Positions 7,552-35,733 of a stretch of DNA of 43,271 bases are shown piece by piece. The stretch is from Candidatus Woesearchaeota archaeon. GTDB lineage: Archaea > Nanobdellota > Nanobdellia > SCGC-AAA011-G17 > GW2011-AR20. The stretch spans positions 1 through 43,271 of the forward strand of contig JAGVYY010000046.1 in NCBI GenBank assembly GCA_018303005.1, read 5' to 3'. Made by a program: the position numbers and the translations under genes. Below the pieces are notes generated by a model. It was not told where the DNA came from. It did not search any database and worked only from the letters and a program-made list of their open reading frames with translations. Within the stretch, counting starts at the first letter, position 1, and each line of letters starts with the position of its first letter.

Positions 7552-8202
7552 TTAATGTAAATAACCTTGAACATAATAATTATGTTTAATTGCATAATCG
7601 CAAATAACAATAATTTTATTTAGGGTTGCCTTAAAATTTTTATAAAAAGAATATTTTTTGATTACTACAATTACTTTTTCACCTTTTTTGTCGATCCATT
7701 TATCATTAATTTTTTCATGCAAAACACTATACGCTGAAAATTCAAACTTTTCTTTTGTTAAATCAACTTTTTTATCATTCAGTATATAGTAACACTCATC
7801 CCATCCACCCTCTATATATACTTTATTATCTCCAATAAATACCTCTTCACTTCCATGCATGAATTTTTCCCCTTTGAAACTAATCCAATAGAAGTAAGGA
7901 AATTTATTAGGGTTTTCTTTTATAACTTTTAAAATAGTTTTAATTGTTGATTTAACTTTTTTTGGATCAAATATTATGTCTTTATTTGGTTCATCACTAT
8001 ATAATGATACGTCTACAATTTCGTAAAAATCTAAATCCAATTTTTGATTTGCAATCTTTTCGATTTTTTCAAGGTTATCTCTAAATAAGGGCTGATATTG
8101 ATAATATCTTGAAGATAGAGATGGTAAATCTTTTATAAAAACAGGCTCAATATCTCCATTCGGTTTCTTTTTTACAGGACGAATGTTATAATCGACTCCC
8201 AT
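7552..8202 (-). CDS. Uncharacterized protein
   Basis: 216-aa ORF, no recognised family. Confidence 0.6.
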   Translation of the reverse strand: MGVDYNIRPVKKKPNGDIEPVFIKDLPSLSSRYYQYQPLFRDNLEKIEKIANQKLDLDFYEIVDVSLYSDEPNKDIIFDPKKVKSTIKTILKVIKENPNKFPYFYWISFKGEKFMHGSEEVFIGDNKVYIEGGWDECYYILNDKKVDLTKEKFEFSAYSVLHEKINDKWIDKKGEKVIVVIKKYSFYKNFKATLNKIIVICDYAIKHNYYVQGYLH

Positions 8203-8389
8203 GAAATCAATAGATGATGCAATATTTTTAAAAGTTGCTGTATTTAGGCAGGTTTCTCAATTGCGTATAACTTATCGGATTAAGTATAGTTTTTCTTTAG
8301 AAAAATTAAGCGAAACATTATTTAATTCAGTGTTATATTCCTTTTTCTGAAAGAAAAGATCGAATGAAGTGAGAAGTCAATTACCTGGC

Positions 8390-8734
8390 TTACCCTTTAA
8401 ATTCAAATCTAACAAATTCAACTTTAATACCGCTTTTGGGATCTTTTGTTAAATAACCTGGTGGCCCAACCTGAACTACTTGTTTCATTTTGTCTGTCGG
8501 TTCACTTGCACATGCAACTCGAATAATGACATCTGCTGGCTTGTTGTTAGGAAAATCCTTTTTGAATTCATTACTCATTGTATAACCAACATAATTAGCC
8601 AATTTTTGGATGAGGGAGCCATATCTTTTCTCTGGATCTTTTGTGACTCCTGCATCAACTATTTCAAGGTATATTTTTTTCTTGTCTTTTGATCTTGCTA
8701 TGATATCCAATTTATTCGGTTCTTCTAGTGTCAT
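8390..8734 (-). CDS. Uncharacterized protein, possibly DUF6572-like
   Basis: NKLDIIARSKDKKKIYLEIVDAG...RYGSLIQKLANYVGY; weak family recall. Confidence 0.45.
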   Translation of the reverse strand: MTLEEPNKLDIIARSKDKKKIYLEIVDAGVTKDPEKRYGSLIQKLANYVGYTMSNEFKKDFPNNKPADVIIRVACASEPTDKMKQVVQVGPPGYLTKDPKSGIKVEFVRFEFKG

Positions 8735-8875
8735 GTATTTAATGGGTATAGAAAGGAGTATAAAAGATTTTCTAAAAGCCGAATAATTGATTGTAACTAA
8801 TAGGTGCTAGTTTCCAGATAGGGATTGGATTTTAGTGTAACAATATCAAAGGGAAAATTTAGAATTTTAAATATG

Positions 8876-29228: not shown

Positions 29229-29591
29229 TTAACCTATTATCCTTATTTTTTTCCCCTGTGGATTCTTTTTTATTAATTCTTTTATTGTAATTGCTTTTCC
29301 CATTTTATTTATCTTTTCTTTGGCTTCTCTTGAGAACTGATAGGCTGCGACTGTCAATTTTTTTGTCATTTCACCCATACCCAAGACTTTTCCAGGAACT
29401 ATGGCAGTTTCGCCTTCTCTTGTGTGTTTATCTATCCTGTAAATGTTTACTGATCTTCTTCTTCTTGTTGGTTTCTCTAGTTCATAAGCGATTCTCTTCC
29501 AGAGATTTATATTGCTGCTTTTAGCAGTCTCCTTTACATCATTTATTAGTTTCTGCAGTTCCGGGTTTGTTGGGCCTGTTCTTTTTACCAT
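29229..29591 (-). CDS. rpl18e: Ribosomal protein L18e
   Basis: RTGPTNPELQKLINDVKETAKSSNINLWKRIAYELEKPTRRRRSVN...VLGMGEMTKKLTVAAYQFS. Confidence 0.95.
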   Translation of the reverse strand: MVKRTGPTNPELQKLINDVKETAKSSNINLWKRIAYELEKPTRRRRSVNIYRIDKHTREGETAIVPGKVLGMGEMTKKLTVAAYQFSREAKEKINKMGKAITIKELIKKNPQGKKIRIIG

Positions 29592-29601
29592 GCTGATTTC
29601 A

Positions 29602-29856
29602 TTAATCTTCTGCTACCACATTTGGTTCTGGAAGCCTTGAAAAATATTTTTTTCCATCAAGATATGATATTTCCACTCTTGTGTATCTTTCGATTTGATG
29701 TATTATTGGAATAATATTTGTTTCGCTATATTCTTCTTTTAGACGTAGCTTTAAACTATCTTCGTTTATCTTGTTATTATCTATTGTCTGTTTTATTACT
29801 TTTTCCAATTCTTCCCTATTTAATGGTTCTTGTCTGCTGTTTTGTGTATTTGTCAT
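29602..29856 (-). CDS. Uncharacterized small protein
   Basis: ORF with ATG at 29856 preceded by AGGTGAATCTT SD-like sequence. Confidence 0.5.
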   Translation of the reverse strand: MTNTQNSRQEPLNREELEKVIKQTIDNNKINEDSLKLRLKEEYSETNIIPIIHQIERYTRVEISYLDGKKYFSRLPEPNVVAED

Positions 29857-29930
29857 AAGATTCACCTTTACCTCAGTTTTATTATATCTAGTTAAGCAGT
29901 TGATTGACATCAATTAGTTTTATAAATGTT

Positions 29931-29965
29931 TTTGTTAACACGTATTGTTAAGTTAGCGGGATCTA
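29931..29965 (+). repeat. Left inverted repeat of R-M module
   Basis: GTTAACACGTATTGTTAAGTTAGCGGGATCTA. Confidence 0.8.
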
Positions 29966-30018
29966 TTAAATGAATGGAATTCAGAAAGGGTTAAAAAGTA
30001 GTTTTCCTTTGCTTTTTT

Positions 30019-30732
30019 ATGTCAAAAGGTTTAATCCCATCAGCAATAGAAATTTTACAAAATGCAGAAAAGATAAATCCCAATCTTAATATTAATCAAT
30101 TACATTCTAAAACATTTGAATTAATGAAGCTGTATAGAACTAATTATTATGAAAGTAGAGTAAATGAACTTCTTTCAAGTAAAAATTTAATCAGCATATC
30201 AAATGAAATGAAATTAAGTATTAAGAAAGAACTATTAAACCCAATTATTGCTAATGAAACAGAATACAGTAACTTTATGGAGGAGGTATCTAGACGTGTT
30301 AGCCAAACCTTCCAAGTAATTTCTGGAAATTTAGCCGAGCTCTGTGTTGAAAGAGAATTAAATAAAATTGGTTTAAAGACAAATATTGATTATGTTAGAA
30401 AGAAGGAAAGGACAGATTTTATAATATATTATCGTGTTAATGGTAAACAGACTAAAAAGCATAGAATAGAAGTAAAGAATGTTAAGTTAAGAGAAAGAGG
30501 AGCAAGGGGATTGGCTTTTGATGGAGATAGTATGGTTGGTTTTTTTGATCAACCATCGGAATTTACTGAGTCTAATATTGAAATTATAGATGAACATTGT
30601 AAAAAAACAGGTGGATATTGTTACATACCCTTGGGAACTTTAGAATTAATTAAAAATAAAACTAAAAGATTTAAAGCAAATACGGAATTAGCTTTGGACA
30701 TGAAGAAATTTGTAAATGTTGGTTTTATTTAG
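30019..30732 (+). CDS. Type II restriction endonuclease-like PD-(D/E)xK protein
   Basis: GNLAELCVERELNKIG...RTDFIIYY...HRIEVKN; convergent with a DNA methyltransferase; TTAAAAAG box ~25 nt upstream. Confidence 0.7.
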   Translation: MSKGLIPSAIEILQNAEKINPNLNINQLHSKTFELMKLYRTNYYESRVNELLSSKNLISISNEMKLSIKKELLNPIIANETEYSNFMEEVSRRVSQTFQVISGNLAELCVERELNKIGLKTNIDYVRKKERTDFIIYYRVNGKQTKKHRIEVKNVKLRERGARGLAFDGDSMVGFFDQPSEFTESNIEIIDEHCKKTGGYCYIPLGTLELIKNKTKRFKANTELALDMKKFVNVGFI

Positions 30733-31603
30733 GGGGTCTCCAGAAATCTAAAATATATTCAAAAGTTGTTCCTAATGTTATATAATTGTTTGGATATCCA
30801 AAAATTCCAGCTCCATTAACAAGATTCCTTCTATCCCAAATAATTGTATTTCTTAATTCATAACCTGCTTTTTCTAATGCTTCTATAACATAAATATGCA
30901 AAGGTATTCTTTTATTTTCCCACCATAAATCTGTGATATTGATAATACAATGCGCTTTATATTTGAGTAATGGTAATATCCCTTTATAGATTTCCCCTAA
31001 AGCATTTGCGTATACTCTTGGTTCCATAGTTCCTAAATCTCTTGGATTATTAGAATATTGCTGGACTTTCATATAAATCTTATCTTGCCTTAAATTACCT
31101 CTTCTACTTTTGTTAAGTCTTTTTCTGTTTAGCATATTTGAATAAGGTGGTGAAGTAACACAAAGTGCCACTGATTCTTTCTCTAGATATTTTGGTATAT
31201 TTATAGCATCATCATTAATAATTATCTGCCTTGAAGAATCTTCTAATCTCTTTTGTTCTAATCTTTTTTTTGAGAAATTTACATATTCTTTTTTTAAATC
31301 AAATCCCACTGCATTTCTATCTAAATCTTTAGAGGCAATTAATGTAGTTCCAATACCAACAAAAGGATCTAAAACAAGTTCACCTTTATGTGTAAACAAT
31401 TGAATGCATTTTTTTGGCAGAGCTATCGGAAAAACAGCTGGATGTGTTTCTTTATCACGTATATCTCTTTTTTCATAAAAGAATTCCCACACAGCTACTT
31501 GATGGTGCAACCATTCTTTTGCACTTAAGCAATTAGTATGATTAAGAGGGCAATTACAAGTTTTCTCATTTAGAATGTTTAATGTTTTAACGTTTTTTTT
31601 CAT
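30725..31603 (-). CDS. DNA methyltransferase (N4/N6 amino-MTase)
   Basis: TSPPYSNML catalytic motif; LVLDPFVGIGTTLIASKDLDRNAVGFDL SAM motif. Confidence 0.9.
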   Translation of the reverse strand: MKKNVKTLNILNEKTCNCPLNHTNCLSAKEWLHHQVAVWEFFYEKRDIRDKETHPAVFPIALPKKCIQLFTHKGELVLDPFVGIGTTLIASKDLDRNAVGFDLKKEYVNFSKKRLEQKRLEDSSRQIIINDDAINIPKYLEKESVALCVTSPPYSNMLNRKRLNKSRRGNLRQDKIYMKVQQYSNNPRDLGTMEPRVYANALGEIYKGILPLLKYKAHCIINITDLWWENKRIPLHIYVIEALEKAGYELRNTIIWDRRNLVNGAGIFGYPNNYITLGTTFEYILDFWRPPK

Positions 31604-31748
31604 CTTTCTTATTTTTACGAGGTTTATTCCAATAAGGGCTTTTGCATTTAGGACATATTATAGGGTAATCTTCTTTGTTTCTAGGAACCCACTCATGAGA
31701 GCACCTTTCACATTTAAAGCCTTTAAAAATTAATTCAATTTCTCCCAT
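31587..31748 (-). CDS. 53-aa zinc-ribbon protein upstream of the methyltransferase
   Basis: MGEIELIFKGFKCERCSHEWVPRNKEDYPIICPKCKSPYWNKPRKNKKDEKKR; CxxC...CxxC; not in the ORF track. Confidence 0.75.
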   Translation of the reverse strand: MGEIELIFKGFKCERCSHEWVPRNKEDYPIICPKCKSPYWNKPRKNKKDEKKR

Positions 31749-31833
31749 ATATAAAAATAATTATACTGAACTATTTAAACCTTACTCTTTTAAGTCATAC
31801 TTTTATAGTAATAACTTACAAACGAAATATATG

Positions 31834-31867
31834 TAGATCCCACTAACTTAACAATACATTGTTAACA
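31834..31867 (-). repeat. Right inverted repeat of R-M module
   Basis: Reverse complement GTTAACAATGTATTGTTAAGTTAGTGGGATCTA matches the left copy with one indel and two to three substitutions. Confidence 0.8.
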
Positions 31868-33354: not shown

Positions 33355-35733
33355 TTATCCCTCTCTCAGATAACCCCAAGTATGCAGTCTGTCACTGTCT
33401 TCATACCATCTGTCACCAATATCAGTTCTGTAATACATGTTCGGAATAAGTATGTTCTTTACCCTATGGTAAGCTTGATTTTGTGCTTGTTTCATTGTAG
33501 GCCCTGTGCCACAGACAGTCAATAAGAAACCAGATGTTCCGGCAACAACCCATTCGTCATTTATCTTTTTTATATCTTCAATGTGCACTCCTTCAAGATT
33601 CGGTTTCTTAAATAATATGACAGACTCTTTGGACTTGGCAGTGAGTGTTTCTATATCTTTAAAAGGAAAAGGCGGAACCACAATAGCGACACCAACCTGG
33701 AATCCGTTTCTTACATTTAGCTTTGGTTTTTTTCCTTGTGCTAATTCATATAAAAATTCACTGATATGACTTATCATTCCTTCCTGTTGTATGCTTATAG
33801 TAGGATACCCAAACCTGGAAGTGAATTCTAAGGGATAAATTCCGTTGCTGTTTACCATGCAGTTTATGTCGATATATCCTATATAGCCCTCTTCAGCAAG
33901 CTTCGGTTCAATCTTTTTCAGTGTGTTATTAAAAAGCTTGTTAGGTCCGCTCCAGAACATTGATGTATTGCCACACCAGTATGGCTTACCATTTCTTCTT
34001 ACATACATTATGTGATTTTTCACAGTTGCACAATAAACCTTCTTATTATATCTGATTTTTTTTATTTCTTTTCCATCTGCTATAACATCTAAATTCTTGG
34101 TTCTCTCATGTATCTCATATTGTAGCTTTGGCCTATGGGCAAGATTATTCTCGAGGAAAGCTTTTTTTCCTGTTACCTTTTTTATGACAGCAACTCTTCC
34201 TGTCTTCAAGGCCAATTCCTGGATGTCATTGGCTAATTCTTTAGAATATGTATAAAATACCCTGTAATCTTCTCCAATTATTTTTCCGTTGCATAGGCAA
34301 TACCAATCAAGAAACAGATTTATCTGCGTAGGCGCGAGGTCTTTTATTATGCCTGGAATATATTTTTTACTTTCTTCTTTAAATTCATCAAGATAAGAGG
34401 CTAGTTGTTTGTTATATGTGTAATATTCAGAGTTATTTTCTCTGAAATTAAATGGGATCTTATCAAGAATATGCTTTAACATCATTTGCTTTTCTATCTG
34501 TTTTTCTCCGTTTATCCGGTAAATGCCTGTATCGGTAATATCTATTTTATCAATACATATTTTGCTGCCTGATACATGACCATTAGAAAGCCACATCCCA
34601 AAAAAAGGCAGCCAATCATCCATATCAACTTTGATTTCATAAGAATCAGAGATCAATAACTGGTTTTTTTGGTAGTCATTTTGATAACTACCTGAAAGAA
34701 CCGGCTTCAGCAAAAAACTCTTGATTGTGTTGCTGCGCCAAATTCCTGTTCTCTTAATCAAACTTTGATGCTGCAAATCTCTTGCTTTTACAAACTCAAA
34801 ACTATTGTTTTTCTCCTTTGCATCAAAATTTGAAGAAACAAACATGTTATGGTCAGGTGTAACAGCAATATCTAAATCTTCATTCTTTATTTTTATCAAT
34901 TCCTTATGGTGGCTAAATGCAACGATTAATTCAGGTTTATTAAACTCAATGTTATCATTATCAGGGTTTAGCGTACAGATTTTATCATTATGGTCTAGAC
35001 CCTTGAAATATTTCCATCCTTTTTCAGTCAAAACTTCTGTATTTTCGTCATAACAACCCATTTCTCCAGTGCTTGGCCCTATATTGCCTGGAAATAATTT
35101 TTTGTGCTCAAAATTAATATTTATTGGATAAACAAACTCTTTTCCGTTAAAAAAAGCACCAACCGCAGCTTCTACCCCATTAATTCTTTTTTGCAGCTGA
35201 AAAGAATGCATTTTTTTTGACCATGCCCTTTTATAGTCATCAAGAACTTTGATAACATCTTTTCCATCTTCTTCTTCTCCGACAAATAACAATCCTTTAT
35301 TGGTCTGTATTTGCCCGCTTGGCTTTATGACATATCTTCCAGGATTCCTGGTTACAAATTCAATGGCATCATCAAAAGAGGTGAAATTATTGTATGGGAG
35401 TGTATTCACACCTGCTTTTTTTAGTTCATCTTGCCCAAAGGACCTGTCATCTTCTAGTTTATCAGTGTATGGTGAACCACCCACAACAAGTTTTCCCTGG
35501 TCTCTTAACTTCTTGGCCTTATTACCAAAGACAACATCATCAAAAATTATAATATCTGCCCATTCAACATCTTTTTCCCAATCATCTGATTTTGGGACAA
35601 ATCCGTCAGCTACATCTTTTTCTTCTGGATTCTTAATAAAATATCTTACATAATGTCCTTCTTGTATGACTTTCCAGGCAGTATCACCTATAAGTGCATC
35701 ATTAGAGACGAACAGAAACTTTTTTTGATCCAT
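33355..35733 (-). CDS. purD: ATP-grasp phosphoribosylamine-glycine ligase-like protein interrupted by an intein
   Basis: Exteins ...GNIGPSTGEMG / TSMFWSGPNKLF... join into a continuous GARS-like ATP-grasp. Confidence 0.8.
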   Translation of the reverse strand: MDQKKFLFVSNDALIGDTAWKVIQEGHYVRYFIKNPEEKDVADGFVPKSDDWEKDVEWADIIIFDDVVFGNKAKKLRDQGKLVVGGSPYTDKLEDDRSFGQDELKKAGVNTLPYNNFTSFDDAIEFVTRNPGRYVIKPSGQIQTNKGLLFVGEEEDGKDVIKVLDDYKRAWSKKMHSFQLQKRINGVEAAVGAFFNGKEFVYPININFEHKKLFPGNIGPSTGEMGCYDENTEVLTEKGWKYFKGLDHNDKICTLNPDNDNIEFNKPELIVAFSHHKELIKIKNEDLDIAVTPDHNMFVSSNFDAKEKNNSFEFVKARDLQHQSLIKRTGIWRSNTIKSFLLKPVLSGSYQNDYQKNQLLISDSYEIKVDMDDWLPFFGMWLSNGHVSGSKICIDKIDITDTGIYRINGEKQIEKQMMLKHILDKIPFNFRENNSEYYTYNKQLASYLDEFKEESKKYIPGIIKDLAPTQINLFLDWYCLCNGKIIGEDYRVFYTYSKELANDIQELALKTGRVAVIKKVTGKKAFLENNLAHRPKLQYEIHERTKNLDVIADGKEIKKIRYNKKVYCATVKNHIMYVRRNGKPYWCGNTSMFWSGPNKLFNNTLKKIEPKLAEEGYIGYIDINCMVNSNGIYPLEFTSRFGYPTISIQQEGMISHISEFLYELAQGKKPKLNVRNGFQVGVAIVVPPFPFKDIETLTAKSKESVILFKKPNLEGVHIEDIKKINDEWVVAGTSGFLLTVCGTGPTMKQAQNQAYHRVKNILIPNMYYRTDIGDRWYEDSDRLHTWGYLREG
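33967..35055 (-). mobile_element. Intein (363 aa) with degenerate LAGLIDADG-like domain
   Basis: N-terminal CYDENTEVLTEKGWKYF, block B DIAVTPDHNMFV, block F/G KVYCATVKNHIMYVRRNGKPYWCGN|T. Confidence 0.92.

Follow-up and report, generated by a model that had tools for sequence, protein, structure and literature searches.

A transposase-less element with putative restriction-modification genes of an archaeon and an IS6-related transposon family found directly beside BRE/TATA core promoters

Results

The window is the whole stretch of DNA analyzed here, the 43,271-nt contig JAGVYY010000046.1 of a Candidatus Woesearchaeota archaeon (GenBank assembly GCA_018303005.1). It harbors a 1,918-bp element (29941..31858) with cargo genes and no transposase, bounded by terminal inverted repeats (TIRs) and a target site duplication (TSD) and located upstream of the operon for ribosomal protein L18e. 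The features of the locus are as follows.

29229..29591, minus strand: ribosomal protein L18e, first recognizable gene of the operon (NF003079, E = 9.4e-45)
29917..29931, minus strand: target core promoter (BRE/TATA) of the L18e operon, AAACATTTATAAAAC read outward, directly adjoining the left TSD
29932..29940, no strand: left TSD, TTGTTAACA, 9 bp, exact direct repeat of 31859-31867
29941..29965, plus strand: left TIR, CGTATTGTTAAGTTAGCGGGATCTA, 25 bp
30019..30732, plus strand: putative restriction endonuclease, 237 amino acids, D132...E151-x-K153 resembling a PD-(D/E)XK site
30725..31603, minus strand: type II DNA methyltransferase, 292 amino acids, TSPPY motif (PADLOC MTase_II PDLC03363, E = 4.6e-121)
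31587..31748, minus strand: zinc-ribbon protein, 53 amino acids, weak zinc-ribbon matches, overlapping the methyltransferase start from upstream
31834..31858, minus strand: right TIR, TGTATTGTTAAGTTAGTGGGATCTA on the reverse strand, 25 bp
31859..31867, no strand: right TSD, TTGTTAACA

An earlier, sequence-only reading had described inverted repeats of ∼33 bp interrupted by a 1-base gap. The repeats are real and were found at the positions it gave, but their length is the sum of a 25-bp TIR and a 9-bp TSD, and the gap vanishes once the sequence is parsed in this way. Merged, the two TIR copies read (C/T)GTATTGTTAAGTTAG(C/T)GGGATCTA; at the tip one copy has C where the other has T, and the remainder is almost perfect. 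Only one pair in the window combined an exact 9-bp direct repeat with at least 20 of 22 matching TIR positions, whereas the best of the other pairs scored 15/22 and Markov-shuffled windows (n = 20) peaked at 16/22, confirming that this TIR/TSD pair is far above chance. The duplication itself was absent from the earlier reading, which had suggested looking for one. The inverted match of its outer GTTAACA is accidental, arising because the TSD holds the palindrome TGTTAACA, and the palindromic nature of TTGTTAACA is a coincidence. As that reading had stated, the repeats bracket exactly the nuclease, methyltransferase, and zinc-ribbon genes, with no transposase between them in the open reading frame (ORF) list or by Pfam or NCBIfam.

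The 3′ end of the methyltransferase gene overlaps the 237-amino-acid ORF, so that the two genes lie tail to tail. PDLC03363, the PADLOC type II model, covers the methyltransferase over its full length, identifying it as a type II enzyme; it also matches Pfam N6_N4_Mtase (1.6e−27), and its TSPPY motif together with PDB matches that include N4-cytosine methyltransferases makes an N4-cytosine type likely. No significant match to the 237-amino-acid ORF was obtained in Pfam, NCBIfam, PADLOC, or PDB, nor was a homolog found in IMG/VR or in any of the 102 further genomes of the order. Its AF2 model, built from a single sequence, was poor (pLDDT 49.6) and uninformative. The D132/E151-x-K153 pattern suggests a PD-(D/E)XK nuclease, and from this motif and the tail-to-tail pairing with the methyltransferase (M) the ORF is the putative restriction endonuclease (R). 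The window methyltransferase is sporadic: at E ≤ 1e−40, 5 of the 371 phylum genomes sampled have it. One of these homologs (G255) is 76% identical and preceded by a 74% identical zinc ribbon, and another (G314, locus L180) lies beside what by eye appears to be an MvaI/BcnI-type nuclease. This patchy spread would fit acquisition by transfer.

Read outward, the left flank of the element is AAACATTTATAAAACT, and the core promoter to the left of the TSD, which the sequence-only reading had overlooked, belongs to the ribosomal-protein operon rather than to the R-M genes. In a relative (G001, locus L186), 19 nt upstream of L18e (AACAAAAACATTTATAAAA) are identical to the window flank, and no element is present there. 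Because the gene further upstream differs from that in the window, this site is a homologous promoter rather than a strict empty site. Between the target promoter and L18e lies an orphan ORF of ∼84 amino acids (29602-29856, minus strand); none of the 12 further genomes in the family has a homolog of it close to L18e. Elsewhere in the window, a 792-amino-acid ORF (33355-35733, minus strand) resembles, by eye, a phosphoribosylamine-glycine ligase with an intein-like insert.

Searches for the family covered the order (103 genomes) and the phylum (371 genomes), and 80 regions were retrieved. As the sequence-only reading had proposed to check, further copies of the repeat exist in the same genome (G000), and autonomous relatives with this type of TIR, a 9-bp TSD, an IS6-like DDE transposase, and cargo occur both there and in many other genomes of the same archaeal class. 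In the window's own genome, contig C29 carries a 1,550-bp element with the same type of TIR, the TSD TAGATAGAG, a TrmB-type regulator, and no transposase. Contig C52 carries an autonomous element of 3,602 bp with 22/22 matching TIRs (TGCATTGTTGCATAAGCGGGAG), the TSD AGTATACAG, and a 310-amino-acid transposase in addition to cargo. Partial copies of the TIR element were also found on C8 and C20. The copy on C8 (locus L031, 2797-3012) is a 216-bp relic with the TSD CAACAACAA, located just upstream of the promoter of the rpsM (S13) operon; it includes the beginning of a small, truncated gene. Among relatives, G002 has a 3,243-bp element (TIR, TGCATTGTTAAGTTATCGGGAC; TSD, CGGCGAGGT) that encodes a transposase, and the TIR of L140, an element of the same class as that in the window, is nearly identical to the window's (TGTATTGTTAAGTTAACGGGAG). 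The ends of the window element are common to the transposase-encoding elements L140, L060, and L065. In the window's genome, which is 83% complete, the search found no intact transposase with exactly the window TIR; that of C52, with a somewhat different TIR, comes closest.

Two branches could be distinguished. Class A, to which the window element belongs, has TIRs like TGCATTGTT... and a TSD that is always 9 bp in called elements; the sister branch, class B, has TIRs of TGAGCTGT... or GGTTCTGT... and a TSD that is always 8 bp. Tips are mostly TG, TA, or TT in the window branch, and GG tips occur in some members of the 8-bp branch. When public genome and viral contigs were scanned for exact TIR matches, most of what emerged was chance matches in unrelated bacteria, together with one useful contig, VGKO01000002 of Candidatus Pacearchaeota, with the same TIR sequence as G414:C2 (L047/L140). 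This match places the transposon family in the Nanoarchaeota-type archaea.

The transposases match PF13610 (DDE_Tnp_IS240), the C52 protein more weakly. Against NF033587 (IS6) they score 62 to 107 bits, under the curated cut-off of 125, and IS6 is still the best NCBIfam match. An IS1/IS1595-type zinc ribbon is carried at the N terminus. Seven residues are invariant in 39 transposase sequences, of which C16/C19/C43/C46 are read as the zinc ribbon and D128/D196/E239 as the probable DDE triad. The AF2 model (pLDDT 85) has a DDE fold, with the ISCth4 transposase as the best PDB match in Foldseek. The Transposase_mut match reached only E = 0.0044, below the cut-off, so the transposase does not qualify as Mutator type. 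Locus L004 on C29 also contains an IS481-like (rve) insertion sequence (7780-8757) whose transposase is apparently frameshifted. This transposase was considered as the mover and rejected, as elements with matching TIRs contain transposases of a different family.

In nearly every class A element, one flank has BRE/TATA directly after the TSD (examples, AAAGGTTTATAAGC, AAACCTTTATAAATCC, and AAAGCTTTATAAACCC), and the same holds for class B. The consensus from +1 to +13 past the TSD is AAA[G/A][A/C]TTTATAAA, i.e., BRE plus TATA. Because this motif was derived from the initial flanks, the scoring scheme and threshold were frozen, and the test stated, before elements from outside the order were fetched. 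These held-out elements (n = 29) were called from TIR and TSD alone. The motif was matched at the exact TSD edge in 24 of 29, compared with a mean of 1.2/29 at offsets of 15 to 45 in the same flanks (binomial P, ∼5e−29) and likewise 1.2/29 at random places. Offsets +1 and +2 scored in 14 and 9 held-out elements, respectively, as expected because the A/T motif overlaps itself. Overall, 46 of 52 elements pass the motif at the TSD edge, a set that leaves out L037 (matching TIRs with an inexact TSD) and the partial copies L031 and L033. On the promoter side, ORF starts cluster 34 to 37 nt past the TSD, as for leaderless archaeal promoters. The logo and this spacing were taken from the better-scoring side and are thus somewhat inflated, whereas the offset comparison treats every offset equally. 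Orientation is random (24 versus 23). As controls, unrelated transposons with clear TIRs and TSDs were sought in the same loci, and none was found. Members of the family insert with the TSD directly adjoining a BRE/TATA core promoter, and both promoter and gene stay intact.

Empty sites were a further check proposed in the sequence-only reading; they were obtained for sister insertions, the window insertion having only the homologous promoter described above. For L116 (G066), located upstream of a gene reading as L21e, the joined flanks align uninterrupted in G064 and G065, and the target of L102 (G065) is intact in G064. These empty sites in sister species indicate that the promoter predates the insertion and survives it. 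In four elements (L004, L060, L101, and L164), a second TIR adjoins the TSD, in 4/4 on the flank opposite the promoter. Repeated insertion would leave this arrangement if each newcomer entered between the promoter and an element already present. The promoter that holds L102 in G065 appears in G066 (L218, C3, about 73488-74145) to bear a different insertion of ∼650 bp, possibly a case of repeated use of one target. In L031, a metallophosphatase-like gene (478-1390) lies between an upstream ORF and L21e, which are neighbors in G064 and G065; it is perhaps another cargo insertion, its ends not being recognizable.

All examined elements have ORFs beyond the transposase. DNA methyltransferases (N6_N4_Mtase, 7; D12, 2) outnumbered every other named class in a set of 89 cargo proteins, and TrmB and other HTH regulators were frequent. 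DNA methyltransferase or restriction-modification (R-M) genes occur in 9 of 51 other elements, with nucleases of the MjaI type (two), MvaI/BcnI type (two), and HinP1I type (one) and one type I/IIG-like fusion; in the other three of the nine, the methyltransferases (one D12) have unannotated partners. The R (or candidate R) and M genes are tail to tail in all eight two-gene cases, as in the window, which supports the 237-amino-acid ORF as R.

Discussion

The window element is very probably a non-autonomous cargo transposon whose cargo is a putative type II R-M pair and a zinc ribbon, and which belongs to an IS6-related family found in Nanoarchaeota-type archaea. A non-autonomous mobile R-M cassette had been one proposal of the sequence-only reading. 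This proposal is borne out: the genome holds further copies, the insertions have TSDs, autonomous relatives share the same kind of ends, and there are empty sites at sister insertions. A related transposase encoded elsewhere would act on the TIRs and move the element in trans. Alternatively, the element could descend from an autonomous transposon, having decayed by loss of the transposase and become immobile, as might be expected from the missing transposase, the one-base difference between the TIR tips, and the relic copy on C8. However, apart from that difference the TIRs are nearly perfect, an exact TSD and intact genes are preserved, and a second transposase-less copy exists on C29, making decay possible but somewhat doubtful. 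The other proposal had been that the repeats are matched operators; they would then be binding sites for a regulator of R and M, such as a control protein or the zinc ribbon. Both repeats do lie upstream of inward-reading genes and their outer part is palindromic, but that palindrome is the target-derived TSD, which differs at every other insertion; TIRs of the same kind flank unrelated cargo or a transposase; and the adjoining TATA box is the L18e promoter, present in a relative that lacks the element. In its simple form the operator proposal is refuted, and a regulatory role of this kind is highly improbable.

How the target is found is less settled than where it lies. The transposase would join the TIRs with a 9-bp stagger directly upstream of the BRE, and the fixed register suggests that the transposition complex may dock on TFB, which binds the BRE, and TBP. 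TFB, the archaeal factor, is related to Brf1. It is put here at about an even chance that an archaeal IS6-related DDE family recognizes TFB and TBP assembled on the core promoter and places its insertions precisely 8 or 9 bp upstream of the BRE, as a counterpart of Ty3 with Brf1/TBP, thereby spreading type II R-M from safe sites and sometimes repeatedly at one promoter. Direct reading of flexible, AT-rich BRE/TATA-like DNA by the transposase, with no transcription factors involved, would yield the same insertion pattern and is a serious possibility, rated a little short of even. The strength of the motif (+3 and +6 to +13 each carry 1 to 2 bits) speaks for it, as does a weak preference within the TSD (T absent at −2, G frequent at −1) like that of sequence-reading transposases. 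Against it, although not decisively, the motif stops where BRE and TATA stop and allows the variation normally seen among promoters, and the spacing to start codons is that of genuine promoters. Survivorship, in which insertions are random and only those near promoters in intergenic DNA are kept, draws on the low cost expected of an insertion upstream of a basal promoter, but selection would not fix the register to the base pair, and the 24/29 matches at the TSD edge drop to about 1/29 once the offset exceeds a few bases; it is strongly disfavored and considered very unlikely. In the favored reading of the element, the region upstream of a basal promoter in archaea would plausibly be harmless and so constitute a safe site. 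The R-M pair, being costly to lose, may punish loss of the element and aid its persistence, punishment of loss by R-M being an established idea (PMC3874152).

Several known systems share part of this organization. The mobile insertion cassettes described so far, MIC231 and its relatives, are either IS231 elements of Bacillus or carriers of qnrD (PMC3913671); they likewise have inverted repeats and a TSD around cargo, no transposase, and transposase-encoding relatives with the same ends, but the ends of the window element come from an archaeal IS6-related family and its cargo is R-M. With IS6/IS26 and archaeal IS6-like insertion sequences (PMC7986276, PMC6807381) the family shares the DDE_Tnp_IS240 domain and an internal TGT in the TIR, to which the GGTTCTGT ends present in the 8-bp-TSD sister branch can be added. 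Unlike IS6, with its 8-bp TSD and GG tip, the window branch has a 9-bp TSD, tips that are mostly TG, TA, or TT, an N-terminal zinc ribbon, and scores below the NCBIfam cut-off, and elements of the family are about 1.7 to 7 kb with cargo. Excerpts of the IS6 literature (PMC7986276, PMC6807381) name one member with a passenger gene and contain no mention of promoter-adjoining insertion for IS6. In an excerpt of PMC3874152, Furuta et al. (2010) are cited for putative mobile R-M units with imperfect inverted repeats and short target duplications, unlinked to known elements; as far as described there, these resemble the window element as R-M modules bounded by inverted repeats with a short TSD and differ in that a transposon family, transposase, and target rule are identified for the latter.

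Promoter-directed insertion has closer precedents. TnGBS, ISLre2, and ISKra4 (p-MULT 3 and 4) have Mutator-type transposases and insert 15 to 17 bp from the −35 box of sigma-A promoters, and docking of TnGBS on the bacterial initiation complex has been proposed by analogy with Ty3 (PMC3942029). Like TnGBS and ISKra4, the window family comprises prokaryotic DDE transposons at a fixed distance upstream of a promoter; unlike them, it is IS6 related, uses archaeal BRE/TATA with the TSD directly adjoining, and has random orientation. Yeast Ty3, a eukaryotic retrotransposon with its own integrase, integrates precisely upstream of Pol III genes via promoter-bound Brf1 and TBP, a contact that has been demonstrated (PMC8632968), whereas contact of the window family with such factors is proposed from its insertion pattern. 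No report of an archaeal transposon targeting BRE/TATA was found in the open-access literature searched; the nearest earlier remark is a speculation on AT-rich ISH6 targets (PMC3942029). Promoter-directed DDE transposition is known, and what is provisionally new is its occurrence in this IS6-related family, at an archaeal BRE/TATA promoter, or with R-M cargo.

A few Mutator-type elements of bacteria, at sigma-A promoters, and the Ty elements of yeast are known to target promoters precisely. Archaeal TFB and TBP are simple relatives of eukaryotic TFIIB/Brf1 and TBP, and, if true, an independent archaeal case would make it testable whether docking on a B factor and TBP is a recurrent solution for safe integration. 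The element family also offers a definite means by which R-M systems can spread among small-genome archaea, and it provides a rule for finding more cargo elements, namely, to search beside the TATA box.
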